The position numbers and the translations under genes are program-made. The notes below the pieces were generated by a model. That model was not told where the DNA came from. It worked only from the letters and a program-made list of their open reading frames with translations, and searched no databases. Below, one piece after another: positions 2,303 through 53,800 of a stretch of 64,000 nucleotides of DNA. Source of the DNA: Owenia fusiformis. Its lineage: Eukaryota; Annelida; Polychaeta; Sabellida; Oweniidae. The stretch covers positions 4,673,815 through 4,737,814 of the forward strand of contig CAIIXF020000003.1 in NCBI GenBank assembly GCA_903813345.2. The letters are read 5' to 3'. Positions within the stretch are counted from its first letter, which is position 1; every line of letters starts with the position of its first letter.

Positions 2303-2450
2303 ATGTTTCTTTATAGAAATTATAAATTATTAACAGTGTTGATTTTATTGCAAATGGAGTTAGCATCTTGTTCCTTCTTTGGCCCCCGGTTTAAACTTCC
2401 AACATATCATGGACCAATAAGAGAGCCGCCGTTCTTCACGAACATCTCTG
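2303..2450 (+). CDS. VWA gene exon 1: signal peptide
   Basis: The exon gives 49 codons plus one base (phase 1) and ends ATCTCTG before the donor gtaagt. ATG 2303 is preferred because it places a signal peptide at the N-terminus. In-frame ATGs at 2252 and 2267 would add about 12-17 residues before it. The exon's 3' edge is the seed of the 63-bp array that follows. Confidence 0.65.
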
Positions 2451-5400
2451 GTAAGTGATTTAAGTGTACATTATCCATACTAAGGGATTCACCTCTCTTC
2501 ACGAACATCTCTGGTAAGTGATTTAAGTGTACATTATCCATACTAAGGGGTTCATCTCTCTTCATTAACAGTTCTGTTAAGTGATTGAAGTGAACATTAT
2601 CCACACTAAGGGATTCATCTCTCTTCATTAACAGTTCTGTTAAGTGATTGAAGTGAACATTATCCACACTAAGGGATTCATCTCTCTTCATTAACAGTTC
2701 TGTTAAGTGATTGAAGTGAACATTATCCACACTAAGGGATTCATCTCTCTTCATTAACAGTTCTGTTAAGTGATTGAAGTGAACATTATCCACACTAAGG
2801 GATTCATCTCTCTTCATTAACAGTTCTGTTAAGTGATTGAAGTGAACATTATCCACACTAAGGGATTCATCTCTCTTCATTAACAGTTCTGTTAAGTGAT
2901 TGAAGTGAACATTATCCACACTAAGGGATTCATCTCTCTTCATTAACAGTTCTGTTAAGTGATTGAAGTGAACATTATCCACACTAAGGGATTCATCTCT
3001 CTTCATTAACAGTTCTGTTAAGTTATTGAAGTGAACATTATCCACACTAAGGGATTCATCTCTCTTCATTAACAGTTCTGTTAAGTTATTGAAGTGAACA
3101 TTATCCACACTAAGGGATTCATCTCTCTTCATTAACAGTTCAGTTAAGTGATTGAAGTGAACATTATCCACACTAAGGGATTCATCTCTCTTCATTAACA
3201 GTTCTGTTAAGTTATTGAAGTGAACATTATCCACACTAAGGGATTCATCTCTCTTCATTAACAGTTCTGTTAAGTGATTGAAGTGAACATTATCCACACT
3301 AAGGGATTCATCTCTCTTCATTAACAGTTCTGTTAAGTTATTGAAGTGAACATTATCCATACTAAGGGATTCATCTCTCTTCATTAACAGTTCTGTTAAG
3401 TGATTGAAGTGAACATTATCCACACTAAGGGATTCATCTCTCTTCATTAACAGTTCTGTTAAGTGATTGAAGTGTACATTATCCACACTAAGGGATTCAT
3501 CTTTCTTCATTAACAGTTCTGTTAAGTGATTGAAGTTTACATTATCAACATTGGGATTCATCTTTCTTCATTAACAGTTCTGTTAGTGATTGAAGTTTAC
3601 ATTATCCATACTAAGGGATTCACCTCTCCTCATTAACAGTTCTGTTAAGTGATTGAAGTGAACATTATCCATACTAAGGGATTCACCTCTCTTCATTAAC
3701 AGTTCTGTTAAGTGATTGAAGTTTACATTATCCATACTGAGGGATTCATCTTTCTTCATTAACAGTTCTGTTAAGTGATTGAAGTGTACATTATCCATAC
3801 TGAGGGATTCATCTTTCTTCATTAACAGTTCTGTTAAGTGATTGAAGTTTACATTATCAATACTAGGGATTCAACTTTTTTCATTAACAGTTCTGTTAAG
3901 TGATTGAAGTGTACATTATCCACACTAAGGGATTCATCTCTCTTCATTAACAGTTCTGTTAGGTGATTGAAGTGTACATTATCCATACTGAGGGATTCAT
4001 CTTTCTTCATTAACAGTTCTGTTAAGTGATTGAAGTGAACATTATCAATACTAGGGATTCAACTTTTTTCATTAACAGTTCTGTTAAGTGATTGAAGTGA
4101 ACATTATCCATACTGAGGGATTCATCTTTCTTCATTAACAGTTCTGTTAAGTGATTGAAGTGAACATTATCAATACTAGGGATTCATCTTTCTTCATTAA
4201 CAGTTCTGTTAAGTGATTGAAGTGAACATTATCCACACTAAGGGATTCATCTCTCTTCATTAACAGTTCTGTTAAGTGATTGAAGTGAACATTATCCATA
4301 CTAAGGGATTCATCTTTCTTCATTAACAGTTCTGTTAAGTGATTGAAGTTTACATTATCAATACTAGGGATTCATCTTTCTTCATTAACAGTTCTGTTAA
4401 GTGATTGAAGTTTACATTATCAACATTGGGATTCATCTTTCTTCATTAGCAGTTCTGTTAAGTGATTGAAGTGTATATTACCCATACAAAGGGATTCATC
4501 TTTCTTCATTAACAGATCTGGTATGTAATTGAAGTGTACATTACTCACACGACCGTTTAACTAAAGCAGGTCAAATTGATATAATTTAACAAATGTCGAC
4601 AAGAGGTAAATTCAGAATTTTAATTAGCAATTTCAGGCCGTTCGAGAAATATTGCTTATTTTGGAATAACTTTTCTTCCCTTGATTTGTCCTTTGAGAAA
4701 CCTAAACAACATTGGAGACATATATCTGACCTTATTCCATACAAATGCCATGACAATCAATTAAGTATTGACAGAGTTATGGCCACTATGGTAACCACTG
4801 TCACGGGTATGCGGGGCAAACCTAAAGTTTTACATGATAGTCCATTTGTCATTTTCTGAACGTATAAATATTTAAAAGTATGATGTTTTTCTGTGTTAAT
4901 ACTATCATTAGGGATTATTGGAGTGATTTAGCTGGGTTGCCAAAAAATAACTTTGGGGAAAATTTTTGTATCTATTATCATGGTAACATACCAGGTATAT
5001 GGTGGTATCCAAACGCTAAGTCAATAGTCAACGCCATGTTAAGCGATTGCACCCCTCCCTAATCAGCCTATATCATTTTTTCCCCAAACAAACTTTTTGG
5101 GCAACCCAGTTAAATCACTTCAGAAAACCCTTATTATCATGAATCGACCATAAAACATCGTACTTTTAACAATTTCTAGGTTCACTATTGGATGTATAGG
5201 GGTGACAAATGGACTATGAAGAATTATTGTTATACTTCAAATAACCACTTTTTGATGAATCAAACAGTTATATGGTGAAATTCGTACTATGTATTAATTA
5301 ATTAACTAAGACCCATGGTATCACAATATAATAAATCTTTAGAGGAATATCCCATCACAATCCAAATCAGCTGATGTCTGCAGTAAACACCTCCAGGTGT

Positions 5401-16147: not shown

Positions 16148-16297
16148 AACGAGTGTAAACGACCAAAGGAACATTATAACTAATTACGACTCATTAAAAA
16201 TATGTCTGAGTGCAAGGAGGATTTGACCCCACAATGCAATCACGATATTCTTTCGTTTCTTTCGGTACAGTACTTAGCCCTGCGTATTAAACTCTTG

Positions 16298-16303
16298 AAT
16301 AAA
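16298..16303 (+). terminator. Putative polyadenylation signal of the VWA gene
   Basis: AATAAA lies 151 bp after the stop codon, the first canonical hexamer downstream. Confidence 0.5.
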
Positions 16304-16763
16304 CTCGGGTGTCATGATAACAAAATTTGGTTTTATTACATAACATTTTGAAACACCAAGAGTGATGAAAAATAAGCTCAAATATTCTGGATTGGTGATT
16401 ATTACTTTACATACTCGGCGCGCAGATTCTAGTATATATACTTCCGAAGAAGAGGCTCTCTTTTAAGATGTGAAGTCGAACGAATGCAGAGTAATTATTT
16501 AATAACAGATTGTTGCAAAATATTAAACTTGCATTCTTGAAGTCAATCCTCCTTGGGTCGGGTGCGAGACTCCCGCGTCAATGAATTAGATTGATTCGCA
16601 TAAAAGTTCTTATTATTAGGCAGCAATGGCAAAGTATTAGAGGTGTGCACCGATGGTAAATCACATAATCGATCAACGAAATATTTTAATCGATTTAATA
16701 CTTGGCAAGTATCAATAAGTGATCCTCGGTTACGTTTTCTTTCAATCATGGTTACCCCCTTAC

Positions 16764-16885
16764 AATACATTAAGTACCCGATTACATTAAGTACCCGATT
16801 ACATTAAGTGCCCGATTACATTAAATGCCCGATTACATTAAGTACCCGATTACATTAAATGCCCGATTACATTACGTACCCGATT
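16764..16885. repeat. Short tandem repeat, cccgattacattaagta, about 7 copies
   Basis: The unit is 17-18 bp, with variants aagta, aagtg and aaatg before cccgattacatt. Confidence 0.85.
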
Positions 16886-17271: not shown

Positions 17272-17277
17272 TTTATT
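17272..17277 (-). terminator. Possible polyadenylation signal of the cyclin gene
   Basis: tttatt on the + strand reads AATAAA on the minus strand, 195 bp after the cyclin stop. AT-rich context makes chance likely. Confidence 0.3.
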
Positions 17278-17763: not shown

Positions 17764-20700
17764 CTGGATAACAAAAAAGAACTATCATGATTGAATAGTA
17801 TATTAATGATATAAGGGATTAAAGTAACTTTTCAGAAAACACTTTGTAAAGAAATACGTTACTTTTCAAATAACATCTTAGGACAGAAAATTCAACTTTC
17901 TTTAAAAAAGAGGGGTCTACTCTTTTGGTATGTGCATAATGGTTTTTATTACTGTTCTGGTTGAATTTTATAATTCTTTTAATCTAACGCCAATTAAAAC
18001 TACAGCGCAAAATACCTCAACTGTTCGATAGTACAATCCCCCAGTACAACCTCATTGACCTGACTAGATGTCAGGTGTTCGAGGAAATAGGCGCTTGTTG
18101 GGACGGAGAGGTCGAATTTAAGGGTCTGAAGCATTATTTTCTCCATGTGTAGCACTTGGCCGTAGTCGGATGATGCACAGGCAAAGTAGATCAGGTCGTT
18201 AATCTCGGGTGGATAAATTTCCTCCTTAAATTGAAACAGTATATTAGAGAGAAGAATAACTACATATAAATGTCATGATGAAGTAAGATTGAAACAGCCA
18301 ACAGTCCAGGCGGACCGAGTTTCTTGTTCAAAACTGAATACAATTTCGAACAAAATACTCAATCGACTGGGCGCTGGCCGATGGTTCGGAGCAAATGTAA
18401 GCCAGGCATAATGCCAGATAGAAATCTCTTTGCGACGATACACACAGGCATTAACAACCAAAATGATTCTTATAGAAATGTGTTCCTGAAACATACGAGG
18501 GTTGTCACAAAAGTAATGCACTATACGCTCTAATTAACTTTTTCAATAATTGATATTTTCCCATGAGATTTTCAGTAAATGCTCCTTAGAGATTCTACAA
18601 ATTGTCATTTTGACCGATAATACTGTGTTGATGTTATAATAAAATCAAGTTGGTGAGTTTGGGTAGGGTGGGGCAGGTTACTGTCACGTCAAAAGGAATA
18701 AAAATTGAAAATATGAAATAATTAATCAACAAATGCCATTTTTAAAGCTATAAGAAGTATGCTCAGAAATACATTTTAAGATGCTAAATTACTAGGAGCA
18801 CATCCTAGATTTGATGGATGTATATTGCACAGTCTCCCATTTCACATTTTCTCAAAATGTTGGCTTTTGCATGTTATGTACTTTTGATGTCTTTCAGGTC
18901 GAACACTTTTGTCAATTTCTTCAACCGTGACTTGTGGAGTTTTTCCTCCCATGTTTGGAGTTTTCCGGTCATCATTTTTAAATCTCTCACTCTAACTGGT
19001 GTATACTCCTTTTATACATTCTTCATGGTAGCATAAGTTTGTGTGACTGTAAGCCAAAGTGAAGTATGAAATTTGGCCACCAAACGCAAGGCTTTCTGTT
19101 TTCAGGTTTGAGAATTGCAGCCATTTTTGCAATTTATTGACTGTGACTGAATTTGAATTTGTGACTATTGAGCTGTGGTATTATGACTATTGAGCTGTGG
19201 TATTATGACTATTGAGCTGTGGTATTATGACTATTGAGCTGTGGTATTATGACACAGCAATGCTAAATATCATTATTTGTACTTGTTGAACATCATGCTG
19301 AATAAAGTTAACAATTTCCCAAACATTTTGGTCATTTAAAAGAAAGAAATATTAATAAAATAACAATTTGGAGCTTTTCATGATTAGAAAAATTGGTACC
19401 TGCCCCGCCCACCCCTACCCCAGTGTTGCTATAGCAACCATTTTAAGACCATTTTACTTCTGGGACAACGCTCGCATGAGCATTCAGATAACAATTGATG
19501 TGTGTCAATTTATGTCAAGCTCAATCTAAACGTAATGTTAGATTGAAATGAATCGCACAAAACGAGCGATACACATTCGAAATTTGATTTTCACACTATT
19601 TCCACACATTCGCCGCTTATCGGGTACTCCATAAACATTATTTTATAGGCATGTATTTTTCTCACTATCCACGCTTTCATCCCTGGTTAAAAAGACAAAC
19701 CTTGCTTGATATAATTTAACTCACGTGTTTCGCAGCTATCAGGTACGATGTGAGGCCAACAAGCTGGTAAATATTCTTAGAGATAGGAACAGCGGCAATG
19801 AATCTGTCCACTTTACTTACGTGTTTCGCAGCTATCAGGTACGATGTGAGGCCAACAAGCTGGTAAACATTCTTAGAGATAGGAACAGCGGCAATGAATC
19901 TGTCCACTTTACTTACGTGTTTCGCAGCTATCAGGTACGATGTGAGGCCAACAAGCTGGTAAATATTCTTAGAGATAGGAACAGCAGCAATGAATCTGTC
20001 CACTTTACTTACGTGTTTCGCAGCTATCAGGTACGATGTGAGACCAACAAGCTTGAAGATATTCTTAGAGATAGGAACAGCGGCAATGAATCTGTCCATT
20101 TTACTTACGTGTTTCGCAGCTATCAGGTACGATGTGAGGCCAACAAGCTGGTAAACATTCTTAGAGATAGGAACAGCGGCAATGAATCTGTCCACTTTAC
20201 TTACGTGTTTCGCAGCTATCAGGTACGATGTGAGGCCAACAAGCTGGTAAACATTCTTAGAGATAGGAACAGCGGCAATGAATCTGTCCACTTTACTTAC
20301 GTGTTTCGCAGCTATCAGGTACGATGTGAGGCCAACAAGCTGGTAAATATTCTTAGAGATAGGAACAGCAGCAATGAATCTGTCCACTTTACTTACGTGT
20401 TTCGCAGCTATCAGGTACGATGTGAGGCCAACAAGCTGGTAAATATTCTTAGAGATAGGAACAGCAGCAATGAATCTGTCCACTTTACTTACGTGTTTCG
20501 CAGCTATCAGGTACGATGTGAGACCAACAAGCTTGAAGATATTCTTAGAGATAGGAACAGCGGCAATGAATCTGTCCATTTTACTTACGTGTTTCGCAGC
20601 TATCAGGTACGATGTGAGACCAACAAGCTTGAAGATATTCTTAGAGATAGGAACAGCGGCAATGAATCTGTCCATTTTACTTACGTGTTTCCCAGCTATC

Positions 20701-22286
20701 AGGTACGATGTGAGGCCAACAAGCTGGTAAATATTTTTAGAGATAGGAACAGCAGCAATGAATCTGTCCATTTTACTTACGTGTTTCCCAGCTATCAGGT
20801 ACGATGTGAGGCCAACAAGCTGGTAAATATTTTTAGAGATAGGAACAGCAGCAATGAATCTGTCCATTTTACTTACGTGTTTCCCAGCTATCAGGTACGA
20901 TGTGAGACCAACAAGCTGGTAGATATTCTTAGAGATAGGAACAGAGGCAATGAATCTGTCCATCAGGTTAACTGCCAAGAATAACGTGTCAGGATAGAAC
21001 TTGTAGTTGTGGTTCAATTTGATTAACCAATCGATCAACTGGCTACGCATGGCTGGTGTAATCTAAAAAGTGTTTTAGATCATTCAATTCATTATTTTAC
21101 TAAAAATCATTGATTGATTGTAGATTATACATAGTCATACTCGTAGCGTAAGATTCCCATTGACATACAGGGATGTGTTAAAGCGACAGCTCGGTAGTCG
21201 TTTCAGAGTAAATTAACGCGCACCGATATCGTTGGTAAAACGAGGTGAAACCAAAGCTCCGTGTAATATGCTTTTCAAATTCAAATTTCAAATTCTATTG
21301 ATTGTTAAATTTGTTAGAAGGTGGTAAATGTTTATGTTTTCAGAATATCTCAAATTTCCGGTCGAAAGGCATTCATCAAAGATTCAGTACGTTTAGTTCA
21401 AAACACTTACATTCGGTTGCCGTTCTTTATTGCCACTTTAAAGTCGATTTATTAAAATTGTTTATTCTCTTTATATTCCATAGAAATTCAATAAATACCT
21501 CCGTCTGCTTCTCGAGGCAGGCCAAGGGATGGAACTTCATCTCCATGCCTCTTTTGTGCATGTAGTTATCCGTCACATACGTTGTCAGCGCGTGATTGCT
21601 GCGTTCTCGTTCAAGCGAGACTTGAGCATGATCCGATGAGAGAGGATGACGACCAGTCCTAACTTTCATTGACAATACAGGCTCGCTATGACGTCGACTG
21701 TCCCTATAAAACGCCGGGGGGCGCTCATTGGCTCTAAAGGTCTGGACATCCAAATGAGGTCGACTGAACCTACGTGGTTTCTTGGGAGCGGCTTCAATAG
21801 GCTGAAATGTAAAAGGAAATGTCAACTTCCAGTGCGTGTAGTTCAAATTGACACCCGTGATTTATTAACAACCAATCATCAACTGAAATATGGTAAATGA
21901 TCAATTTATCAAAAACTAATAACCATGTGACGAAAAGAGAGAATGTCCCTCGAATTATATCTGAAAGTACATAACTAAACGATGGATTTTTTGTAATGAA
22001 ATAAAGTGAACACTTCTGGGGTCTCGGGTCTTGGACCTGTAAGCCTACGTAATATGCTTAGTTTGTTTGGAATGGAGGTACGACTGATTACCTGACTTTC
22101 TTGATCTTCAAAAGGCTCGTCGCTGTACACAGTAGGACAGACTTTTTTAGGATGAGAGCATTCTTCACCAAATGCGCATGCGCTTGTTTCAACTTCCTGT
22201 ATCGTCATCAAGTTTTGCTTTCTTATCGGATCAGAGAATGAATCCTCGTGGAATGACTGATACCCCATATCTAACGACAAATCCAT
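17472..22286 (-). CDS. CCNO: Cyclin O-like cyclin (5 exons)
   Basis: Exons in transcript order: 22304-22092, 21801-21499, 21062-20877, 18224-18016, 17763-17472. All junctions are GT-AG and phases match, giving 394 codons from ATG 22286. The cyclin box starts MRSQLIDWLI (residues 171-180) and continues with MDRF, YQLVG and AAKH-EEIYPPE across the exon 3/4 junction. The second cyclin fold reads FLELSLTDYAICQYAPS. Among A/B-type families, cyclin O fits best by YQLVGLTSYLIA, FLEHLT and ELSLTDYA. Cyclins bind and activate a CDK; cyclin O in vertebrates supports centriole amplification in multiciliated cells. A divergent cyclin A/B is the alternative. A non-coding or short coding exon upstream of 22304 is implied by the acceptor there. 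Exon 3 is followed by duplicated copies of its own end. Confidence 0.8.
18016..18224 (-). CDS. CCNO: Cyclin exon 4
   Basis: Acceptor caatttaag, then GAGGAAATT; donor gtattt. Encodes EEIYPPEINDLIYFACASSD to FFLEHLT-like SAYFLEHLTSSQ and EQL. EEIYPPE is the classic cyclin box motif and fuses with AAKH of exon 3. Confidence 0.9.
18296..18412. repeat. Dispersed hairpin repeat family, copy 2
   Basis: It contains gaacaaaatactcaatcg, cggagcaaatgt and gccaggcat, shared with copies at 11778-11873 and 58362-58477. It lies in cyclin intron 3. Confidence 0.6.
18530..19700. other. Cyclin intron 3, unique part
   Basis: No exon is seen. At about 19168-19255 a 22-bp unit (gactattgagctgtggtatt) is repeated four times. 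Confidence 0.5.
19168..19255. repeat. 22-bp tandem repeat, 4 copies
   Basis: The unit gactattgagctgtggtatt plus at is repeated almost perfectly. Confidence 0.85.
19725..20876 (-). repeat. 96-bp array: 12 in-frame copies of the cyclin exon 3 end plus donor
   Basis: Each unit holds the last 29 codons of exon 3 (MDRF...AAKH) and then GTAAGTAAA. Donors sit exactly 96 bp apart at exon ends 20877, 20781 and so on to 19725; the last reads GTGAGT and is followed in frame by TAA. 96 is divisible by three and no unit has a stop, so the frame 21062-19725 stays open for 446 codons. Subtypes with IYQLVG, VYQLVG and IFKLVG alternate in blocks. The opposite-strand 419-residue frame is a by-product. Confidence 0.95.
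20877..21062 (-). CDS. CCNO: Cyclin exon 3: start of the cyclin box
   Basis: Acceptor cactttttag, then ATTACACCAGCC; 62 codons, phase 0 at both ends. Encodes ITPAMRSQLIDWLIK through AGKH. The end chosen is the first donor met (GTAAGT), which yields a normal-length cyclin box on joining exon 4; twelve further in-frame donors follow. Confidence 0.9.
21499..21801 (-). CDS. CCNO: Cyclin exon 2
   Basis: Acceptor ttttacatttcag, donor gtattt, 101 codons, phase 0 at both ends. The N-terminal part is basic and Pro/Ser-rich (PKKPRRFSRP). The last part, NYMHKRGMEMKFHPLACLEK, is the usual stretch just before a cyclin box. Confidence 0.85.
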
Positions 22287-24621: not shown

Positions 24622-24625
24622 TTAA

Positions 24626-25552: not shown

Positions 25553-26645
25553 GGGTATCTTGAAGGATGGAGTAGGTCTTCATTGGGCAAAGAGCATGAG
25601 CCTGGACAATGAACGCCCGATCTTGAAGGATGGAGTAGGTCTTCATTGGGCCAAGAGCATGAGCCTGGACAATGAACGCCCGATCTTGAAGGATGGAGTA
25701 GGTCTTCATTGGGTAAAGAGCATGAGCCTGGACAATGAACGCCTGATCTTGAAGGAGGGAGTAGGTCTTCATTGGGCAAAGAGCATGAGCCTGGACAATG
25801 AACGCCCGATCTTGAAGGATGGAGTAGGTCTTCATTGGGCAAAGAGCATGAGCCTGGACAATGAACGCCCGATCTTGAAGGATGGAGTAGGTCTTCATTG
25901 GGCCAAGAGCATGAGCCTGGACAATGAACGCCCGATCTTGAAGGATGGAGTAGGTCTTCATTGGTCCAAGAGCATGAGTCTGTACAATGAATTCCCGATC
26001 TTGAAGGATGGAGTAGGTCTTCATTGGGCAAAGAGCATGAGCCTGGACAATGAACGCCCGATCTTGAAGGATGGAGTAGGTCTTCATTGGGCCAAGAGCA
26101 TGAGCCTGGACAATGAACGCCCGATCTTGAAGGATGGAGTAGGTCTTCATTGGGTAAAGAGCATGAGCCTGGACAATGAACGCCTGATCTTGAAGGAGGG
26201 AGTAGGTCTTCATTGGGCAAAGAGCATGAGCCTGGACAATGAACGCCTGATCTTGAAGGAGGGAGTAGGTCTTCATTGGGTAAAGAGCATGAGCCTGGAC
26301 AATGAACGCCTGATCTTGAAGGAGGGAGTAGGTCTTCATTGGGCAAAGAGCATGAGCCTGGACAATGAACGCCCGATCTTGAAGGATGGAGTAGGTCTTC
26401 ATTGGGTAAAGAGCATGAGCCTGGACAATGAACGCCCGATCTTGAAGGATGGAGTAGGTCTTCATTGGGCAAAGAGCATGAGCCTGTATAATGAACGCCT
26501 GATCTTGAAGGATGGAGTAGGTCTTCATTGGGCAAAGAGCATGAGCCTGTATAATGAACGCCCGATCTTGAAGGATGGAGTAGGTCTTCATTGGTCCAAG
26601 AGCATGAGTCTAGACAATGAATTCCCGATCTTGAAGGATGCTCCA
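25553..26645. repeat. 63-bp tandem array, about 17 units, orphan
   Basis: The unit begins gatcttgaaggatggagtag and includes cattgggcaaagagcatgag and gacaatgaacgccc. Because 63 is divisible by three, three frames stay open for 353-386 codons on both strands. Unlike the other large arrays it does not abut a recognised exon edge, and no consensus donor occurs in the unit. A seed exon, perhaps a 5' untranslated exon of the cyclin or of an unknown gene, cannot be excluded. Confidence 0.9.
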
Positions 26646-35800: not shown

Positions 35801-38800
35801 CCCCTAGCTAGCAAAAGTTTCATAAAATTGATTCTATTGATTCAAACCCTTTTTCTAATTTCCTTTTTAATTGACCCATGAACTTTAAATTAAGTGCCCA
35901 GAAACCACCAAAGAGCATATTAAAATCGTAAAATCTTCTAGAGGGAGTGGACCACCCTCGCTCAGATTTTTTAAAAAAAAATCTGAATTTATTTTATTTG
36001 TTGTCTCAGACACTTTAAAAGTGCCAAGACATTATCAAATAGCTAGCACCTTGAAATGGTCGTTTTACTTATTATCGAACACCTTAAAAGTGTTCATAAA
36101 TCACTAACATAATCGATGCAGTACATTGGAATCGCCCTTTTCTTATGTTTCTCAAAATTGCTCATACTAACAAAATATGAAACAGAATTAAAGTGGGCCT
36201 AATTTAGAAGGTAAGCGAAAACCCCAATTCGATCCCGATCTCACTGCCGTTAATTTACGCAGTAAATATTAACCAGTTTATTATTTTAGTAAAAACCGCA
36301 CCCCCTTAAGGAAAAGTGTCTGACGGGCCTGTTTGGACATCTATGTTAAAATTATTGTGTTGCTACCTTGAGCCATTTTTACATATTAACACTTATAGTA
36401 TTCTTAAAAGAACTGCAAATATAACATGTATATAATGGACTCATCATAGAATCAGGACATTGCTATTGCCTGGGTAAGAATGGAAATATGACATATGAAA
36501 TGGACTCACCATAGAATCAGGACACTGCTATTGCCTGGGTGAGAACTGCAAATATGACATATGAAATGAACTCACCATAGAATCAGAACACTGCTATTGC
36601 CTGGGTGAGAACTGCAAATATGACATATGAAATGGACTCACCATAGAACCAGGACATTGCTATTCGCTGGGCAAGAACTGCAAATATGACATATGAAATG
36701 GACTCACCATAGAACCAGGACATTGCTATTCGCTGGGCAAGAACTGCAAATATGACATATGAAATGGACTCACCATAGAATCAGGACATTGCTATTGCCT
36801 GGGTGAGAACTGCAAATATGACATATGAAATGGACTCACCATAGAATCAGGACATTGCTATTGCCTTGGCAAGAACTGCAAATATGACATATGAAATGGA
36901 CACACCATAGAACCAGGACACTGCTATTGTCAGGATAAGAACTGCAAATATGACATATGAAATGGACTCACCATAGAACCAGGACACTGCTATTGCGTGA
37001 ATAAGAACTGCAAATATGACATATGAAATGGACTCACCATAGAATCAGGACATTGCTATTGCCTGGGTGAGAACTGCAAATATGACATATGAAATGGACT
37101 CACCATAGAATCAGGACACTGCTATTGCCTGGGTAAGAACTGCAAATATGACATATAAAATGGACACACCATAGAACCAGGACACTGCTATTGTCAGGAT
37201 AAGAACTGCAAATATGACATATGAAATGGACTCACCATAGAATCAGGACACTGCTATTGCCTTGGCAAGAACTGCAAATATGACATATGAAATGGACTCA
37301 CCATAGAACCAGGACACTGCTATTGTCAGGATAAGAACTGCAAATATGACATATGAAATGGACACACCATAGAACCAGGACACTGCTATTGTCAGGATAA
37401 GAACTGCAAATATGACATATGAAATGGACTCACCATAGAATCAGGACACTGCTATTGCCTTGGCAAGAACTGCAAATATGACATATGAAATGGACTCACC
37501 ATAGAATCAGGACACTGCTATTGCCTGGTTAAGAACTGCAAATATGACATATGAAATGGACTCACCATAGAACCAGGACATTGCTATTGCCTGAATAAGA
37601 TTGCAAATGTGACATATAAAATGGACACACCATAGAATCAGGACATTGCTATTGCCTGGGTGAGAACTGCAAATATGACATATGAAATGGACTCACCATA
37701 GAATCAGGACATTGCTATTCGCTGGGCAAGAACTGCAAATATGACATATGAAATGGACTCACCATAGAACCAGGACATTGCTATTGCCTTGGCAAGAACT
37801 GCAAATATGACATATGAAATGGACTCACCATAGAACCAGGACACTGCTATTGCCTGGTTAAGAACTGCAAATATGACGTATGAAATGGACTCACCATAGA
37901 ATCAGGACACTGCTATTGTCAGGATAAGAACTGCAAATATGACATATGAAATGGACTCACCATAGAATCAGGACACTGCTATTGCCTGGGTGAGAACTGC
38001 AAATATGACATATGAAATGAACTCACCATAGAATCAGGACACTGCTATTGCCTGGGTGAGAACTGCAAATATGACATATGAAATGGACTCACCATAGAAC
38101 CAGGACATTGCTATTCGCTGGGCAAGAACTGCAAATATGACATATGAAATGGACTCACCATAGAATCAGGACATTGCTATTGCCTGGGTGAGAACTGCAA
38201 ATATGACATATGAAATGGACTCACCATAGAATCAGAACACTGCTATTGCCTGGGTGAGAACTGCAAATATGACATATGAAATGGACTCACCATAGAATCA
38301 GGACACTGCTATTGCCTGGTTAAGAACTGCAAATGTGACATAAGAAATGAACTCACCATAGAATCAGGACACTGCTATTGCCTTGGCAAGAACTGCAAAT
38401 ATGACGTATGAAATGGACTTACCATAGAATCAGGACACTGCTATTGCCTGGGTAAGAACTGCAAATATGACATAAGAAATGAACTCACCATAGAACCAGG
38501 ACACTGCTATTGCCTGGGTAAGAACTGCAAATATGACATATGAAATGGACTCACCATAGAATCAGGACACTGCTACTGCCTGAATAAGAATGCAAATGTG
38601 ACATATAAAATGGACACACCATAGAACCAGGACACTGCTATTGTCAGGATAAGAACTGCAAATATGACATATGAAATGGACTCACCATAGAATCAGGACA
38701 CTGCTATTGCCTGGTTAAGAACTGCAAATGTGACATAAGAAATGAACTCACCATAGAATCAGGACACTGCTATTGCCTGGGTAAGAACTGCAAATATGAC

Positions 38801-41800
38801 ATATGAAATGGACTCACCATAGAATCAGGACACTGCTATTGCCTGGTTAAGAACTGCAAATGTGACATAAGAAATGAACTCACCATAGAATCAGGACACT
38901 GCTATTGCCTGGGAAAGAACTGCAAATGTGACATAAGAAATGAACTCACCATAGAATCAGGACACTGCTATTGCCTGGGTAAGAACTGCAAATATGACAT
39001 ATGAAATGGACTCACCATAGAATCAGGACATTGCTATTGCCTGGGTGAGAACTGCAAATATGACATATGAAATGGACTCACCATAGAATCAGGACACTGC
39101 TATTGCCTGGGTAAGAACTGCAAATATGACATATGAAATGGACTCACCATAGAATCAGGACACTGCTATTGCCTGGGCAAGAACTGCAAATATGACATAT
39201 GAAATGGACTCACCATAGAACCAGGACACTGCTATTGCCTGGGCAAGAACTGCAAATATAATGGATGTTCCGGCTGCAAATGTATCCAATATAGTGAACA
39301 CATACATTCCGCCCTGGAAGAAAAATAAAATTCGAAACATAACATTTTTGCAGTTTCACATGTTGTACTTAATAGGAAAAAATAAAGGTTACTTTATAGT
39401 CCCAATATAAAATACAATTATTCGGATTATGAAATCACGGTATAATCCTGGATTTTGCTCACAATAACAAATTCGATTTAACAATACTTACGTAAGTGAC
39501 ATTCACTATACTAATCAGGAAAGCCCCAAGTATCACAATGGCAGTTATTATTTCTCGGCCCCATCTTTTATTTTTAAAGAACGGCTTAAACTCATCCTTG
39601 AATGCCGTCAGTAGAGATTCCATGCCTCCCATCTGAAATCAGTGAAATATTGAAAAACAAAATTGCAAACAATATAAGTCAACGGAAAAAGAACATTTCC
39701 ATTTTCAATCGAAATGAATTTAAAAATTACTGCATCTTAATTCACCTTAAATTATGAAATTAATTGAATATAATTGATTTTGAATTCTTCGTTTTTATTT
39801 TAATGATTTACTGCATTCCGTTTTAGGGTCAAAAAGTATAAACCAGCACAGCAGTTAAAAACGGCTTTGTATAAAAAACCTCCTACCCACGCACCCTCTT
39901 ACCCACGTACGTGGGTCCTGACTCAGTCTTTAAAGAGTTAAATCTTTAACATTTTTTAAACATTATTCTATCTCAATGTATGCTTAATTATGGATGAATT
40001 TATGTACCCATATGCCTTTATTTCTAGATCGGACATCTGTCTCGTCATAAAATAAAGCCAGCATTGCATAATGTTCATTTGAGCTATTTAAGTGTTGTTT
40101 TTGATATATCGAAGCGATTTTTTGTTGATCGGGCAGTCTTACAGTGTACAACCAATCTATTGCTTGGCGCAAATTCGACCAAGCGCATATATTTAGTATT
40201 TTTGTCAGTCATACTTTTAATAGTCCTATACCTTTTAATTTACCATAATGTATATAGAATTTTGTATAAATGACATTTACAATCTGCATGAGGTAACAGG
40301 AGGCACGGATTGCACTGAACGAAGGCTAGGAGATTGCTAATCAGCACTGATGTGTTATACAGGTAAGACTGCCCGATCAACAAAAAACATTTCGACATAT
40401 CAAAAACATAAATCAAATAGCTCAAAAATAATGAACATTTATGCAATTCCGGCTTTATTTTATTTTACTAGAGAGATGTCAGACCTATAAATAAAGGCAT
40501 ATGGATGCATAAATTCATCTATAATTCAGGATAAACTGAGATTGAATAATTAACTCTTTAAAGACTCGGTCAGGACCCACGTACGTGTGTACGAGGGTAC
40601 GTGGGTAGGAGGTTTTTTATACAAAGCCGTTAAAAACATATAATACATGTGTATAGTAGCACCGATTTTAAAACAAAATTTCGATAAAATCAATCGTTAT
40701 CATTTATATCTGCTGGATCTTAATTCACATCAATATTTGATCAAATATCTCATTCCGCTTCGAAAATTACAACTAAGGGTCCAACCAAACATTCGAGTGC
40801 CGTTTTAAAAAGAGTGTTTTAAACATTGTACACACTCTAATCTTTGCTGCAACAATGCAATAAAACAGCACTGTGATATTCGTAGCTACTTACAGCGCTG
40901 TCCAGGCCAAGTGTGAGGAGCATGACGAAGAATACAATGGCCCATCCCTGAGCCCCGGGTAAAGTAGCTATTGCTTCTGGATAGACAATGAACACCAAAC
41001 CAGGACCTGCAATTTAATATGTTTTGCATATATTTTATACGATTTATACAATAAACACCAAACAAGGACCTGCAATTTCATATTATGTTATGCATGTATT
41101 ATATCCGATTTATACAACAAACCCCGAACCTGGACCTGCTATTTCATATGTTATGCCCAGGTGCTTGTCTTGAGGGTCGGGCAAGCCCTCCGATGTGTTT
41201 TTACTGATCTAAGTAGTGAAAGGGAGGCCAATGTTGATGCTTCCTGAAATTTGTACAACATGATTGTTAGATATATCCAGTAAAATATATGGAATCCTTT
41301 CAATAATCGACATGCTGATTCAAACAACACTACATAGCAAAATTACCCAAAATGGTAGCAATCCATCCACTAGTTGCTGAGAAATCTAAAGAATGTGTAA
41401 AGAAGTGATTAAAATGCAAAATACCGACAATTTTTACCTCAAGATTATTAGCTCTAGAGTCGATTACTTCGTAGTGTCCTTCATAGCTTTTATTGCGTCA
41501 AAATGAGAAGGATATGACCTCATAAATGTGTCAAAAAGTTAAACGTGTTTCGCAGTATTTTATACGATTTATACAATAAACATCAAACCTGGACCTGCAA
41601 TTTCATATGCTTTGCAAGTATTTTACACGAGATATACAATAAACATCAAACCTGGACCTTCAATTTCATATGCTTTGCAAGTATTTTATACGAATTATAC
41701 AATAAACACCAAACCTGGACTGAAATTTCATATGTTTTGCAAGTATTTTATACGAGGTATACAATAAAAACCAAACCAGGACCTGCAATTTCATATGCTT

Positions 41801-44800
41801 TGCAAGTATTTTATACGAGGTATACAATAAACACCAAACCAGGACCTGCAATTTCATATGTTTTGAAGTATGCGATACGATTTATACAATAAACACCAAA
41901 CCAGGACCTGCAATTTCATATGCTTTGCAAGTATTTAATACGATTTATACAATAAACCCCAAACCAGGACCCGCAATTCCATATGTTTTGCAAGTATTTT
42001 ATATGAGGTATACAATAAACACCAAACCAGGACCTGCAATTTCATATGTTTTGAAGTATTTTATACGATTTATACAATAAACCCCAAACCAGGACCTGCA
42101 ATTTCATATGTTTTGCAAGTATTTTATACGAGGTATACAATTAACACCAAACCAGGACCTGCAATTTCATATGTTTTGAAGTATTTAATACGATTTATAC
42201 AATAAACCCCAAACATGGACCTGCAATTTCAGAGATAATGCACATTTAATATGCGATTCATTACTAAAACACGCCCCGTCCCTCATTTACTATTGGATAT
42301 GGAGTTTATCCAAACTGCTGTAACGAAATACCTCATGATATGTAAATAAGTTAGTTTTGAGTTTAACAACAAGCTATTATGACATATCAATTGGTCCAGA
42401 ACTACTATAGCTTTGCGTGGTCAATTACATTTTAATTCGTCAAAGACCCAAGTTAAGATAATGTAAATGTAATTATAATGTCCTAGCAATAGTTCTTACC
42501 TTGTTTAGCCACATCTTCTATGTTAACGCCCTGTGTGGACGCCATATAGCCGAGGTAGGAGAATATGACGAACCCGGAAAAAAGACTAGTGAAGCTATTC
42601 ACCCCTGCCGTCACAATGCAATCCCTAAAATATGACAATATATTTAAAATGCAATCATTACAATATGGCAATATCAAAATACAATCCTTACAATATGGTG
42701 ATGTCACAATGCAATCCTTACAATGTGGTAATATCATAATGCAATCCCCTTGCAATATTGCGATGTCAAAATGCAATACTGGCAATATGGGAAATTATTA
42801 TGATGCAATCGATAGCATATGGCAATACCATGATGCAATCGTTATCATATTGCAATATCATTATGCTATCCTTACAATGTGGTAATATCATTATGAAATC
42901 CTTACAATATGACAAAATCAAAATACAATCGTAACACTTTTGCGATCTTTACAACATGATTATACCACAGTGGAATCCCTACACTAGGCAATGTCACAAT
43001 GCACTCCATACAATATAGCAATGACAAAATGCAACACCGACAATATTGCAATATCATTATAAAATCGTTACACTATTGCGATCTTTACAATATGGTTATA
43101 CCACAGTGCAATTCCTACACTAGACAATGTCATAATGCACCCCATACAGTATGGCAATGTCAAAATTCAGTCCATACAATATGGTGCTATAACAATAGGA
43201 GGCAAACCACACTGCCATCTCTATATCGACTTTAGACATATTTGTGTTTACCTATAACAGTAGGAGGTAAACCGCATTGCTATCTTTATATCGACCTAAG
43301 ACATATTTGTATTTACCTATAACAGTTGTTGTGGAATGTATTGTAGCTTGCGTATGCAATATGGACATATTTGTATTTACCTCTAAAGGTAGGAGGCAAA
43401 CTGCACCGTTATCTTTATATCGACCTAAGACTTATTTGTATTTACCTATAACAGTTGTTGTGGAATGTATTGTAGCTTTCGTATGCAATATGGACATATT
43501 TGTATTTACCTCTAAAGGTAGGAGGCAAACTGCACTGTTATCTTTATATCGACCTAAGACATATTTGTATTTACCTATAACAGTTGTTGTGGAATGTATT
43601 GTAGCTTTCGTATGCAATATGGACATATTTGTGTTTACCTCTAAAGGTAGGAGGCAAACTGCACTGTTATCTTTATATCGACCTTAGACATATTTTTATC
43701 GCATGATCTGTAAAATGAAGCCCTCTGATTGGTCAGTTCTTGTGCTGTACCAATCTGTATTGCTACTGAGATTGTCCGCGTTGATCATCTCCGTCGCAAT
43801 ACAGAAAATATTGGTACGGAGGAGACAATCTCAGTAGCAATACAGAGGATAACACGATAAAAACGTTATTGAATGATTTGAAGTGCAAAACAGGATATAT
43901 TCTGTCTCGATATTCTGTATTGCCACTCGACTTCGTCTCGTTCCAATACGGAATTTCTCGAACAGAATATATCCTGTATTGCACTTCAAATCATTCAATA
44001 ACTTATAGTATTTACCTATAACAGTTGTTGTGGAATGTATTGTAGCTTTCGTATGCATATGGACATATTTGTATTTACCTTTAACAGTTGTTGTGGAATG
44101 TATTGTAGCTTTCGTATGCAATATGGACATATTTGTATTTACCTCTAAAGGTAGGAGGCAAACTGCACTGTTATCTTTATATCGACCTAAGACATATTTG
44201 TATTTACCTATAACAGTTGTTGTGGAATGTATTGTAGCTTGCGTATGCAATATGGACATATTTGTATTTACCTATAACAGTTGTTGTGGAATGTATTGTA
44301 GCTTGCGTATGCAATATGGACATATTTGTATTTACCTATAACAGTTGTTGTGGAATGTATTGTAGCTTTCGTATGCAATATGGACATATTTGTATTTACC
44401 TATAACTGTTGTTGTGGAATGTATTGTAGCTTGCGTATGCAATATGGACATATTTGTGTTTACCTATAACAGTTGTTGTGGAACGTATTGTAGCTGGCGT
44501 ATGCAATATGGACGCCAAACCCGGCACCTACCGAGAAGAAAATCTGGTTAGCAGCATCTATCCAAACCTTAAAGTAAAACAAAGTAAAAATGATTGAATG
44601 AATAAACAATAAGAGCTCAGGGGAATCGATCCCGCGGACTCTAAACTTTGAAATTACATAACTTGACGTGCATATCTTGCTGATACAATCAAGACTTCCT
44701 ACAGTAGTAGCTGACGCTGATTTCTTGGAAAATTTGAATTTCGTAAGAAATTTGACTTAACAATTGTTTGATAGTCATGTTCTTGTCTCTTGAACAATGG

Positions 44801-47800: not shown

Positions 47801-50800
47801 GGTTGAGTGGACTCTATCAAGTCAAATATTTGAATTTGACCTCTATCGCCACAGGTTTTTTCTCATACAGCATCTTTTTATTTCAATCTAGTGTAAAATT
47901 ACATCTCATCAAACATACATGATCTATAATATGGAGTTATTCCAATGAATAGTTTCCTAGGCATAACAGTCCATACAGGCATTCTGAAACCATATATTTT
48001 CACATACAACCACCCTCCCACCCTCATATAAACTAAGGAGAGAAGCAAAGTCACACAACTGGCCATGAATAGTGACACAAATATATCCTTTATGGAATTA
48101 AAGTACTTCCTTCTGTTTTATATGAAAAATCAATGAAAAATTATGATGTTTCCATGGATATTTGGGTGGTAATTTCAAAGAGAAAATGTAACCCTAACCA
48201 CAAAATGTAAACATCATAATCATATGCTGTTGTAATGCTGAGACCACAAACTTTGTTGTTATAAACATTTAGATTGAATAAAGAAACCGATTGTCAAATA
48301 TATTTTGATTGAAAAGGCATGCTTGATTTCTTAAGTTTACCCCTTGTGATAAAAGGGTTAGTATCTAATTTTGCATTCAGACAAAATTCAAATGGCCCTA
48401 ACATTTTTAAACTTACATTAGGATCCCCGAGTCTTTCCAGTTTGGGCGTGATGAAGTACAGAATGCCATCCAGGGCACCTGGGAGAAGGACTCCTCTAAT
48501 CAGCAGTATCAACATGACTATATAAGGCATGGTTGCCGTTACCCATACTACCTGTGGATAAAATGATTTGTATTATTAAGTACAAAATGCCATCCAGGGC
48601 ACTTGGGAGAAGGACTCCTCTAATCAGCAGTATCAACATGACTATATAAGGCATGGTTGCCGTTACCCATACTACCTGTGGATAAAATTGTTTGTATTAT
48701 TAAGTACAGAATGCCATCCAGGGCACTTGGGAGAAGGACTCCTCTAATCAGCAGTATCAACATGACTATATAAGGCATGGTTGCCGTTACCCATACTACC
48801 TGTGGATAAAATGGTTTGTATTATTAAGTACAGAATGCCATCCAGGGCACCTGGGAGAAGGACTCCTCTAATCAGCAGTATTAACATGACTATATAAGGC
48901 ATGGTTGCCGTTACCCATACTACCTGTGAATAAAATGGTTTGTATTATTAAGTACAGAATGCCATCCAAGGCACCTGGGAGAAGGACTCCTCTAATCAGC
49001 AGTATCAACATGACTATATAAGGCATGGTTGCCGTTACCCATACTACCTGTGAATAAAATGGTTTGTATTATTAAGTACAGAATGCCATCCAGGGCACCT
49101 GGGAGAAGGACTCCTCTAATCAACAGTATCAACATGACTATATAAGGCATGGTTGCCGTTACCCATACTACCTGTGGATAAAATGATTTGTATTATTAAG
49201 TACAGAATGCCATCCAGGGCACCTGGGAGAAGGACTCCTCTAATCAGGAGTATCAACATGACTATATAAGGCATGGTTGCCGTTACCCATACTACCTGTG
49301 GATAAAATGGTTTGTATTATTAAGAACAGAATGCCATCCAGGGCACCTGGGAGAAGGACTCCTCTAATCAGCAGTATTAACATGACTATATAAGGCATGG
49401 TTGCCGTTACCCATACTACCTGTGGATAAAATGGTTTGTATTATTAAGTACAGAATGCCATCCAGGGCACCTTGGAGAAGGACTCCTCTAATCAGCAGTA
49501 TCAACATGACTATATAAGGCATGGTTGCCGTTACCCATACTACCTGTGGATAAAATTGTTTGTATTATTAAGTACAAAATGCCATCCAGGGCACTTGGGA
49601 GAAGGACTCCTCTAATCAGCAGTATCAACATGACTATATAAGGCATGGTTGCCGTTACCCATTCTACCTGTGGATAAAATTGTTTGTATTATTAAGTACA
49701 GAATGCCATCCAGGGCACTTGGGAGAAGGACTCCTCTAATCAGCAGTATCAACATGACTATATAAGGCATGGTTGCCGTTACCCATACTACCTGTGGATA
49801 AAATTGTTTGTATTATTAGGTACAAAATGCCGTCCGGGGTACTTCACCAGGTGAATGTGCATCTTTACAGTTGTCAAAGTAGACGATGAACACACAAACC
49901 AGCCACCGCCAGCATTAAATGAGGATTAATGTACCTTACAAGGGGTATTGACGCATTTCCAGATGGAAAAGTAAAGGATCGGATGGTGAACACACACACA
50001 ATACATGTCACTAAAGGAGGATTTATATGACAGAGGAATGGACGCGTTTACAGAGGGCAAAGTAAAGGATGGTGAACACACACACAATATATAGCACTTA
50101 AGGAGGATTTATATAACATAAGAATGGACGCCTTTACAAAGGGCAAAGTAAAGGATGGTGAACACACACACAATATATAGCACTTAAGGAGGATTTATAT
50201 AACATAAGAATGGACGCCTTTACAAAGGGCAAAGTAAAGGATGGTGAAAACACACACAATATATAGCACTTAAGGAGGATTTATATAACATAAGAATGGA
50301 CGCCTTTACAACGGGCAAAGTAAAGGATGGTGAACACACACACAATATATAGCACTTAAGGAGGATTTATATAACATAGGAATGGACGCTTTTACAGAGG
50401 GCAAAGTAAATAATGATGAACATACATATCAAACTTAGCACTTAAGAAGGATTTTGACGCCTTGAGGGGAATAGAAAGGACGATGCATACATAAGACGGA
50501 TTAAATGAATAAACACAAAGAGCACACGCGCATCGAACTCGCAACCTCGTGGTTATGGCGCCCAATCGCCTAGCTCGAACGAGCTGGCACACCAGAGGGA
50601 GCACAGCGGACATTTTCTACACACACACACTGCTCGACTGTCCTTAAGAACCAAGAGCAGGTTAATACCTCTGCAACTGAAAGCTCAGACAGTGATCATA
50701 AATGAATAAACACAAGGAGCACACGCACCTCGAACTCGCAACCTCGTGGTTATGGCGCCCAATCGTAGATTAAGATCTAACCACTGAAAGGGGATGAAAA

Positions 50801-53800
50801 ATTACAAACAACATGTTCAACTTAACTTCTAATTTATTCAATATGATCTAAAATACATTATCTCCAAAAATATCCACGATATGATAATTCGATCCACAAA
50901 TTGAACAATATGAAATGATTAAGAGTGCAACAATTGTAGAAGGTGTTTAAATACTCCCAAATGAAAAAAATGTAACAATAAAAAAATAATAATGCACTAA
51001 TTCCTGGAATTTAGTTTACACTTTAGGTATTTCAGAACAAAGACATAACAGGAAATTATATGAGCCAAAAATATTCTAAAATGGATGAATAATGAATGTA
51101 CACATCAAGCACAGCACTAAAGAAGGATTACCATACCTTACCAGATGAATTGACGCCTTTTCATCGTACAAAGTAAAGGACGATGAGCACGCACATCAAG
51201 CACAAACCTAAAGGAGGATTACTATACCTTCCCGGATGAATGGACGCCTTTCTATAGAGCAAAGTAAAGGACGATGAGCACGCACATCAAGCACGAACCT
51301 AAAGGAGGATTACTATACCTTCCCGGATGAATGGACGCCTTTCAATAGGGCAAAGTAAAGGACGATGAACACGCACCTAAAGGAGGATTACTATACTTTC
51401 CCAGATGAATGGACGCCTTTCCATAGGGCAAAGTAAAGGACGATGAGCACGCATATCAAACACAAACCTAAAGGAGGATTACTATACCTTCCCAGATGAA
51501 TGGACGCCTTTTCATCGTGCAAAGTAAAGGACGATGAGCACGCACATCAAGCACAAACCTAAAGGAGGATTACTATACCTTCCCGGATGAATGGACGCCT
51601 TTCTATAGAGCAAAGTAAAGGACGATGAGCACGCACATCAAGCACGAACCTAAAGGAGGATTACTATACCTTCCCGGATGAATGGACGCCTTTCCATCGT
51701 GCAAAGTAAAGGACGATAAGCACGCATATCAAACACAAACCTAAAGGAGGATTACTATACCTTCCCAGATGAATGGACGCCTTTCCGCAGGGCAAAGTAA
51801 AGGACGATGAGCACGCACATCAAGCACGAACCTAAAGGAGGATTACTATACCTTCCCAGATGAATGGACGCCTTTCCGCAGGGCAAAGTAAAGGACGATG
51901 AGCACACACATCAAGCATGAACCTAAAGGAGGATTACTATACCTTCCCAGATGAATGGACGCCTTTCCGCAGGGCAAAGTAAAGGACGATGAGCACACAC
52001 ATCAAGCAGGAACCTAAAGGAGGATTACTATACCTTCCCAGATGAATGGACGCCTTTCCGCAGGGCAAAGTAAAGGACGATGAGCACGCACATCAAGCAC
52101 AAACCTAAAGGAGGATTACTATACCTTCCCAGATGAATGGACGCCTTTCCATCGTGCAAAGTAAAGGACGATGAGCACACACATCAAGCACAAACCTAAA
52201 GGAGGATTACTATACTTTCCCAGATGAATGGACGCCTTTCCATCGTGCAAAGTAAAGGACGATGAGCACACACATCAAGCACGAACCTAAAGGAGGATTA
52301 CTATACCTTCCCAGATGAATGGACGCCTTTCCGCAGGGCAAAGTAAAGAACGATGAACACACACATCAAGCACGAACCTAAAGAAGGATAACTATATCTT
52401 CCCAGATGAATGGACGCCTTTCCGCAGGGCAAAGAAAAGGACGATGAGCACGCACCTAAAGGAGGATTACTATACCTTCCCAGATGAATGGACGCCTTTC
52501 CGCAGGGCAAAGTAAAGGACGATGAACACGCACCTAAAGGAGGATAACTATACCTTCCCGGATGAATGGACGCCTTTCCGCAGGGCAAAGAAAAGGACGA
52601 TGAACACGCACCTAAAGGAGGATTACTATACCTTCCCAGATGAATGGACGCCTTTCCGCAGGGCAAAGTAAAGGACGATGAGCACACACATCAAGCACGA
52701 ACCTAAAGGAGGATTACTATACTTTCCAAGATGAATGGACGCCTTTTCATCGTACAAAGTAAAGGACGATGAGCACACACATCAAGCACGAACCTAAAGG
52801 AGGATTACTATACTTTCCCAGATGAATGGACGCCTTTTCATCGTGCAAAGTAAAGGACGATGAGCACACACATCAAGCACGAACCTAAAGGAGGATTACT
52901 ATACCTTCCCAGATGAATGGACGCCCTTCCATAGGGCAAAGTAAAGGACGATGAACACACACATCAAGCACAGCACTAACTGCCACCTCGGGGCACCAAG
53001 ATCATCTACGCCAGTACTTTTGTGGAGCTGAAGAACACCTCTTCTGAAAATGAAAAATGAATATATTTTAAAATATTTAAATAGTATAAATCAATATATA
53101 TCATGGACATTCATTGAATCAATTTATACTAGTATGGTTATTTAATCATTTAATTTACAATAAATACACAGGTTCTCATAGATTTGTAGTACTGGGAACT
53201 CCACGAAATAGTATAAATTCTAAGAAAAGTGACTTGAGCTAAATATTTTATGGATATATCAATGCACTCCATTAATGAAATGTTTTTAACTTACAAACAT
53301 TGCAAAATTATTAACATCAGATTACTAAAAGCAATATATTCCCAAGTAGTCCTTCGCCGGAGAATTGAATTGTTACCGTTGGATGTATGATTTATGGAAC
53401 AGAATATATTTAGTTATTCATTTTTTAGATTCTAGTTCTCGTAAGATATGATAATGGTATGAAATATTTCCCTTTGGGCGCACGTATATTATACGATTTA
53501 GCCCAGAAAAATCGTTAAATTTTATTCTAACATTTCTCCTTTCATATTTTGAAAGGGATCTAGATAAAAAGGATAACATTGAAGAATAAAATAAGAGAAT
53601 GCCAATGTTCACAAATATCATGTTTCTAAAAGATTGTAATCTATACTTTAACTTCTGTTTTTGTTTATTGTTGTTCTAGAATATATTTATACAGTATAGT
53701 TTTTGATCTACATACTCAAAGTATTCGGTGGCACTAGAAGACCCATTCAGGGTTGCGTTCGGACTAGAAGTAGTAAGGTTAGTAATGTTACGAGGATTCG

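Follow-up and report, generated by a model that had tools for sequence, protein, structure and literature searches.

The window (the whole stretch of DNA that was analysed, 64,000 nucleotides of the annelid Owenia fusiformis) contains a putative first exon ending at 2450 on the forward strand and, on the reverse strand, a cyclin A/B-like exon and several exons of a transporter gene. TRF arrays occupy 24% of these 64 kb, and eight arrays, listed here with associated features, lie across exon-intron junctions:

2433..4550, forward strand: donor-spanning array (TRF) with about 34 copies of a 63-bp unit, at edge 2450 of the putative first exon
19719..20962, reverse strand: donor-spanning array (TRF) with 13 copies of a 96-bp unit, 86 bp from the exon and 10 bp from the intron; the cyclin A/B-like exon ends at 20877
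20877..21062, reverse strand: cyclin exon (Cyclin_N, E 9.9e-19)
36408..39259, reverse strand: donor-spanning array (TRF) with 43 copies of a 66-bp unit, 46 bp from the exon and 20 bp from the intron; the transporter exon ends at 39214
40991..42231, reverse strand: acceptor-spanning array, 63-66-bp unit, transporter exon starting at 41006; broken between 41149 and 41546, with TRF parts at 40991-41149 (66 bp) and 41546-42231 (63 bp)
42611..43197, reverse strand: acceptor-spanning array, 30-bp unit, transporter exon starting at 42624; TRF call at 42611-42930, then a degenerate continuation up to 43197
43187..44513, reverse strand: donor-spanning array (TRF) with a 64-65-bp unit (64 bp: 50 from the exon and 14 from the intron); the transporter exon ends at 44464; degenerate over 43187-43699
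48454..49844, reverse strand: acceptor-spanning array (TRF call at 48454-49839) with 11 copies of a 124-bp unit, 98 bp from the exon and 26 bp from the intron; the transporter exon starts at 48551
49840..50454, reverse strand: degenerate copies of the 52905 donor array, adjoining the acceptor array of 48551; includes an 86-bp array at 49981-50454, about 74% identical
51101..52972, reverse strand: donor-spanning array (TRF) with about 20 copies of a 91-bp unit, 68 bp from the exon and 23 bp from the intron; the transporter exon ends at 52905

All eight arrays were found where the sequence-only reading had placed them, at five donor and three acceptor edges, and each unit comprises the exon end and its donor or acceptor. 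In every case a GT or AG stands beside the edge and recurs one unit deeper into the intron. The arrays had been described as starting exactly at the exon edge; the TRF starts fall 14 to 98 bp within the exon. Unit lengths are mostly as first given, the exception being the array at 42624 (30 bp rather than 32). Five of the edges (52905, 48551, 44464, 42624, and 41006) are confirmed by alignment of the spliced five-exon peptide with a dopamine transporter, which is gap-free over 207/207 residues (E 3.7e-90), and the predicted edge at 39214 fits the reading frame of the next transporter exon. The weakest of the eight is the putative edge at 2450, defined by an open frame that starts with Met and by a GTAAGT; at a guess, this gene may include the VWA-domain exon at 15455-16147. 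The arrays do not form one satellite family, as had been proposed: when seven of the eight window units (all except that of 41006) were compared with three introns, four matched their own intron only and three matched nothing, and shuffled versions of the three introns gave no match to any of the seven.

Two transporter introns, 48552-52904 and 42625-44463, consist to 87% and 82% of end-derived copies, which upholds the earlier suggestion of introns growing from their ends. Within both, donor-derived copies adjoin acceptor-derived copies; in the latter, the arrays of donor 44464 and acceptor 42624 meet near 43.2 kb. Summing the intron shares of the units, the original length of these two introns would have been only about 30-60 bp. 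Gaps between neighboring sampled exon matches (see below) have a minimum of 94 bp and a median of 329 (n = 114 gaps), so that introns of 30-60 bp were not met in the sample; part of the unique intron sequence may have been lost, rather than the introns having been this short at birth.

Arrays were also scored around 268 exons from three unrelated families (TCP1, kinesin, and myosin) located elsewhere in the genome. The sample was picked without regard to repeats for TCP1, in which 76/76 candidates were scored; 122 of 218 kinesin and 65 of 210 myosin candidates were scored. The 204 TCP1 and kinesin matches were filtered to 176 (the C2 kinesin array, present as 17 copies, was merged into one row, and 11 other matches, longer than 450 bp or on C222, were removed), and 92/92 myosin matches were used. 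Because the window gene is itself a member, the 107 matches of the transporter family were left unsampled. Automatic splice-site prediction placed 24/62 arrays at edges but could not define an edge for 111/268 exons; every array lying no more than 110 bp from an exon match was therefore judged by eye. This check removed two edge calls (L069 and the donor side of L145) and added two that had been called intronic (L072 at 2563, and L073); the exon of the added L072 array lay outside the sample, its edge is absent from the naive null, and the count without it is 24. Prior to the check, the counts were 20/42 for TCP1 and kinesin, 5/20 (P 0.10) for myosin, and 25/62 for all. L042, noticed before sampling, was excluded from every count.

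The proposed excess of arrays at splice junctions elsewhere in the genome is borne out in this sample: of 62 arrays, 25 lie across an exon edge where the naive null predicts 9.7 (about 2.6-fold, P 3.5e-7), and no array was scored as internal to a sampled exon. The 25 edge arrays are spread over nine large contigs, have units of 28-259 bp, and comprise 9 donors and 16 acceptors (hand count). TCP1 alone gives 8/13 against 2.3 (P 3e-4); myosin alone gives no excess (4/20 against 2.8, P 0.28). The further claim, that some process favors duplication across junctions, holds in part. When the null uses the pre-expansion intron length and 16 arrays extending past the end of their region (9 at edges) are left out, the excess drops to 16/46 against 9.4 (P 0.007), and it resides in units of at least 45 bp (12/16 against 5.9, P 7e-4), with none in units below 45 bp (4/30 against 3.6). 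The naive figure was therefore dropped as proof of a junction-directed process. An excess confined to long units is expected if these could not fit inside short introns, and since this null yields 9.4 of the 16, geometry covers over half of the edge arrays, leaving a roughly two-fold excess of long units.

The copies carry surplus splice sites (decoys), and the GT or AG is intact in 203/259 of these. In the window, GT is present in 2/32 decoys of the 2450 array, 12/12 of the cyclin array at 20877, 41/42 at 39214, 14/14 at 44464, and 19/20 at 52905, and AG in 11/13 at 41006, 0/9 at 42624, and 10/10 at 48551. Decoys agree with their anchor to 0.91 for the dinucleotide and 0.88 for neighboring positions (P 0.065), so there is no clear sign of either purging or retention. 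Stops are present in copies of the 39214 and 52905 units, and the 64-, 91-, and 124-bp units shift the frame; such decoys cannot normally be read in, and the sequence of the copies thus suggests that decoys are skipped in splicing.

The sequence-only reading knew of no described system of this kind, but one exists in amphioxus, where tandem repeats across exon-intron boundaries have been termed "mirages" (PMC3087553, PMC3902484). According to these papers, they occur in Adh3 of Branchiostoma floridae and B. lanceolatum, in the globins BflGb6 and BflGb9, and in troponin C, PGBD5 is likened to them, and intron gain from mirages has already been proposed. Matches to the linker family of annelids speak against the present sequence being itself from amphioxus. 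Both those repeats, as described there, and the arrays reported here are of minisatellite size (units of 30-124 bp in the window and 28-259 bp in the sample), have units that cross the boundary together with its splice signal, lie on the donor or acceptor side with lengths that differ by locus, and retain AG/GT in many, not all, repeats. The differences are largely of extent: the amphioxus cases described there are a handful of cephalochordate genes, whereas this annelid has 25 edge-straddling arrays among the 62 scored around 268 exons; BflGb6 is given with 3 and 6 repeat units in two haplotypes, whereas up to 43 copies occur here; and two introns here consist largely of copies from both of their ends. 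The amphioxus work also examines splicing and length instability, whether allelic or somatic, with undisturbed regular splicing taken as a trait of mirages, whereas the arrays here are known from the sequence of one assembly. In the Rogers model (named in PMC3087553), introns are gained by tandem duplication of AGGT-bearing exon sequence, and a potato RdRp gene has been described as a case of intron gain by tandem duplication (PMC4974935). From what these sources give, the likeness is that tandem duplication copies splice signals beside exon sequence; however, in the Rogers model a new intron arises within an exon, whereas here existing introns are enlarged.

With moderate confidence, we interpret the arrays as mirages, that is, minisatellites with a junction-straddling unit, produced by neutral tandem duplication in short introns, tolerated, and then amplified. 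How the duplications are born, that introns were short at that time, that the process is neutral, and which splice site is chosen are inferred, as follows. Genes would acquire small tandem duplications (about 30-160 bp), for instance when staggered breaks are filled in and their ends joined; where an intron is barely longer than the duplicated piece, most duplications would include an exon edge. Duplication of an edge would be almost harmless, with the surplus exon piece and splice site ending up in the intron, and if the spliceosome pairs sites across the exon, the copy nearest the exon would stay in use; duplications within exons would be purged. Unequal exchange or slippage between copies would then amplify the array, with growth possible only into the intron, which would lengthen from its ends and may become mostly decoy exon edges. 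Break fill-in plus NHEJ yields such duplications in mouse ES cells, and fill-in of staggered breaks by CST/Pol alpha-primase is a plausible birth route, although the setting in the available part of that study is experimental breaks, not splice junctions (PMC8355091). Among whole low-copy arrays, 11/26 (6/15 edge arrays) measure within 3 bp of an integer number of units, and these near-integer lengths imply that microhomology is sometimes dispensable at birth; the other 15, which deviate by 4 to 29 bp, count against this scheme. The unit takes roughly balanced parts from exon and intron (medians of 41 and 30 bp in the 25 sampled arrays, by hand), as expected under random placement around the junction. 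The anatomy of the arrays, their recurrence elsewhere, decoy sites that change at about the background rate, and the two mostly end-derived introns are the observed part of this mechanism. The long-unit excess (12/16 against 5.9) counts against geometry and tolerance alone, and these may not be the whole cause.

That residue bears on an alternative which we regard as possible but doubtful, namely a mutational process aimed at exon-intron junctions that creates or amplifies the arrays; candidates include splicing-coupled polymerase pausing, R-loops, nicks, or unequal exchange for which the conserved exon acts as a seed in a genome of divergent introns. Besides the P value of that excess, open flanks alone give 10/33 against 5.2 (P 0.016), and long-unit arrays straddle edges at 35 per 100 kb versus 4-8 over the adjoining 150 bp of intron, with 3 arrays in 48 kb of random sequence. 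Under the naive null, long-unit arrays with more than 3.1 copies lie at edges in 11/12 cases (3.1 expected) and those with fewer copies in 7/11 (3.6 expected), hinting at edge-favored amplification. Arrays of short units crowd the 50 bp just outside edges (10 arrays or 38 per 100 kb, versus 10-13 at 50-200 bp), but their density climbs again to 16-34 per 100 kb at 200-350 bp. Also counting against such a process, introns bounded at both sides have no clear excess (6/13 against 4.2, P 0.17), myosin alone remains non-significant, and the phase of the unit about the junction appears random rather than fixed.

It is very unlikely that selection keeps the arrays, with decoys regulating splicing or repeats being translated. 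At least 85% of decoys have their GT or AG in six of the eight window arrays, and the reading frame of the cyclin array is open across its 13 copies; however, a 13-fold repeat would break the cyclin box, nearly all decoy sites are gone in two window arrays (2/32 and 0/9 intact), intronic copies of transporter exons contain stops, and units divisible by three number 15/33 against 11 expected (hand count). Selection on decoys is not supported, as their splice sites are no better conserved than neighboring positions at the 0.05 level. We consider coincidence in a repeat-rich genome highly improbable as well: arrays do cover almost a quarter of the window and the pre-expansion null explains 9.4 of 16 edge arrays, but the TCP1 family, chosen blind to repeats, shows the excess, and two introns are assembled from both ends. 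False tandem expansion during assembly has next to no credibility, since copies within an array diverge from one another by several percent and become degenerate by degrees toward the outside, the sampled edge arrays lie on nine large contigs, and the amphioxus PGBD5 repeats are described as backed by resequencing (PMC3902484), although copy numbers here come from one assembly and BflGb6, as reported in PMC3087553, was aberrant in a draft assembly and rebuilt from traces.

While this kind of array is already known from a few amphioxus genes, its scale here and its occurrence in another animal group look new; no report of mirages outside lancelets was found among the matches listed in the open-licence literature, limited to the parts available, and they may occur in further animals. 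A broader proposal, which we think unlikely, is that in both annelid and amphioxus, exon edges seed a genome-wide ratchet of intron growth through junction-favored duplication or amplification, by which short introns would be lengthened tens of fold and rebuilt almost entirely as decoy copies of their own exon ends. The arrays touch on two open questions, how introns lengthen and how the spliceosome chooses one site among dozens of near-identical ones. Natural arrays that set a true exon next to as many as 43 near-identical donors or acceptors are numerous here and provide a ready test of exon definition, and the introns built from both ends offer a concrete path for intron growth.

Tandem repeat detection with TRF recovered, at the expected places, all eight arrays that the sequence-only reading had assigned to exon edges in three genes. 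A GT or AG is present at each edge, and in all eight the exon end is repeated one unit into the intron, which bears out the claim that the units hold the edge together with its splice site. The arrays had also been described as beginning exactly at the edge; this detail is corrected here, as the starts called by TRF lie within the exon, 14 to 98 bp from the edge. Six edges belong to a minus-strand gene for a monoamine-type SLC6 transporter. A peptide spliced from five of its exons at the proposed edges gives a gap-free alignment to a dopamine transporter (207 of 207 residues, E 3.7e-90), which confirms the edges at 52905, 48551, 44464, 42624, and 41006, and the edge at 39214 is supported by reading-frame fit. 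The exon ending at 20877 is cyclin A/B-like (Cyclin_N, E 9.9e-19), and 2450, in the third gene, is a candidate edge placed from a Met-containing open frame and a strong donor. In a comparison of seven of the eight units with three introns, matches were confined to the unit's own intron in four cases and absent in three; shuffled introns gave no match to any of these seven. A further 63-bp array of 17 copies lies at window positions 25557-26640; three frames listed for it are open along most of its length, and no exon edge was linked to it. Plus-strand open frames also occur within the transporter gene (32703-33773), which by eye, from a motif, resemble a reverse-transcriptase fragment; a Pfam search of 33357-33773 gave no support for this reading.

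In the transporter intron at 48552-52904, relatives of its two edge units cover 3,778 of 4,353 bp, with acceptor-derived copies occupying 48552-49844, donor-derived copies lying within 49840-52904, and the two sets abutting. Relatives of both edge units likewise cover 1,516 of the 1,839 bp of the intron at 42625-44463, where a donor-derived copy runs straight into an acceptor-derived copy near 43.2 kb. A third intron (41007-42500) is covered by its own acceptor units over 912 of 1,494 bp, and the introns hosting the remaining window arrays also contain much other sequence. Summing the intron shares of the units suggests that the original introns at 48552-52904 and 42625-44463 measured ∼30-60 bp. 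Since the gaps between sampled exon matches begin at 94 bp (n = 114, median 329), these introns may also have shed some of their unique sequence.

The genome searched, in which the window occupies C3:4673815-4737814, comprises 498 Mb in 525 contigs (twelve large contigs total 477 Mb); the Owenia fusiformis assembly is described as 505.8 Mb with 12 chromosome-scale scaffolds (PMC9977687). Exons were sampled by family match, blind to repeats: a first sample held 176 TCP1 and kinesin exons, in 105 regions taken with 500 bp per side, and a second held 92 myosin exons in 49 regions. Arrays reported by TRF with a period of at least 9 and a score of at least 80 were counted as edge-spanning or not, and near-edge cases were then judged by eye. 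Against a null in which a two-copy array falls anywhere in the sampled sequence, 25 of 62 arrays were edge-spanning (9.7 expected, P 3.5e-7), including one, at 2563 of sampled region L072, whose exon lies outside the sample; for units of at least 45 bp, the count was 18 of 23 (6.7 expected, P 4e-7). The excess was present in the TCP1 sample (8/13 vs. 2.3 expected, P 3e-4) and the kinesin sample (13/29 vs. 4.5, P 7e-5), and was not replicated in the myosin sample alone (4/20 vs. 2.8, P 0.28). Twenty random 2.4-kb stretches held 8 arrays, which may or may not touch exons, and 3 of the 8 have units of at least 45 bp.

Ten short-unit arrays adjoin an exon match (at most 50 bp outside it) without spanning it, in regions L006, L013, L030, L033, L069, L130, L131, L144, and L145; short-unit array density is 38 per 100 kb at 0-50 bp outside the exon, 10-13 at 50-200 bp, and 16-34 at 200-350 bp. 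Region L042, part of C2:23266359-23269174, was excluded from the counts because it had been noticed before sampling. In this interval the end of a kinesin motor domain is matched 18 times in tandem at 159-bp spacing; in the L042 part the unit holds the exon with an acceptor-like start and GT at its end, so tandem multiplication seems to have involved a whole exon. One myosin-head segment (profile ∼18-84) has about a dozen separate matches spread over 9 kb at C9:37985509-37994834 (L152-L154), looking like an alternative-exon cluster of a myosin gene. The erythrocruorin linker family, an annelid family, has three above-cut-off matches inside 15 kb of contig C6.

Because arrays lengthen introns, an intron was shorter when its array was born. 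In a stricter null, array copies were subtracted and 16 arrays running off their region were omitted, 9 of them edge arrays; edge-spanning arrays then numbered 16 of 46 (9.4 expected, P 0.007). The excess held for units of at least 45 bp (12/16 vs. 5.9, P 7e-4), with none for shorter units (4/30 vs. 3.6); introns bounded on both sides gave 6/13 (4.2 expected, P 0.17) and open flanks 10/33 (5.2 expected, P 0.016). On these counts, over half of the edge arrays would be the yield of neutral duplication in modest introns, and for long units a roughly two-fold excess at edges is left over. The introns built from both ends support the proposed growth of introns from their ends, and the proposal that a process favors duplication across junctions is supported in part.

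GT or AG is intact in 203 of 259 decoys (intronic array copies of an exon edge and its splice site) across 33 arrays, 25 sampled and 8 from the window. Per-array agreement with the anchor, the real edge, is 0.91 for the dinucleotide and 0.88 for neighboring positions (P 0.065), and two window arrays have lost almost all decoy sites; decoys thus seem to drift along with the rest of the unit. Stop codons interrupt copies in the arrays at 39214 and 52905, and a unit of 64, 91, or 124 bp throws the copies out of frame, so the exon-nearest copy should be the one spliced. Exon definition, in which sites pair across the exon, predicts the same use of the exon-nearest site. For the acceptor array at 48551, the predicted choice should be the last of 11 near-identical sites.

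In the favored reading, the arrays originate as small tandem duplications, in random phase relative to the junction, that would be tolerated because splicing hides them and would later be amplified into the intron. Unit shares, worked out by hand for 25 arrays, have medians of 41 bp of exon and 30 bp of intron. Array length falls at most 3 bp from whole units in 11 of 26 whole low-copy arrays and is off by 4 to 29 bp in the other 15, so that staggered-break fill-in with end-joining, as outlined in PMC8355091, could be a birth step, though not the sole route. Long-unit arrays lie at edges in 11 of 12 cases with more than 3.1 copies vs. 7 of 11 with fewer, and this bias, with the residual excess, leaves room for a junction-favored step.

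The window and genome arrays are the same structures as the mirages of amphioxus, tandem repeats whose unit spans an exon-intron boundary. PMC3087553, a globin paper, describes them in Adh3 and globins and already proposed that introns are gained from them, and PMC3902484 adds troponin C and PGBD5. Among the matches listed from the open-licence literature, there was no report of such arrays in annelids or Owenia. The arrays found here are thus of a known structural type, and what is remarkable is their scale and, likely, the phylum in which they occur.
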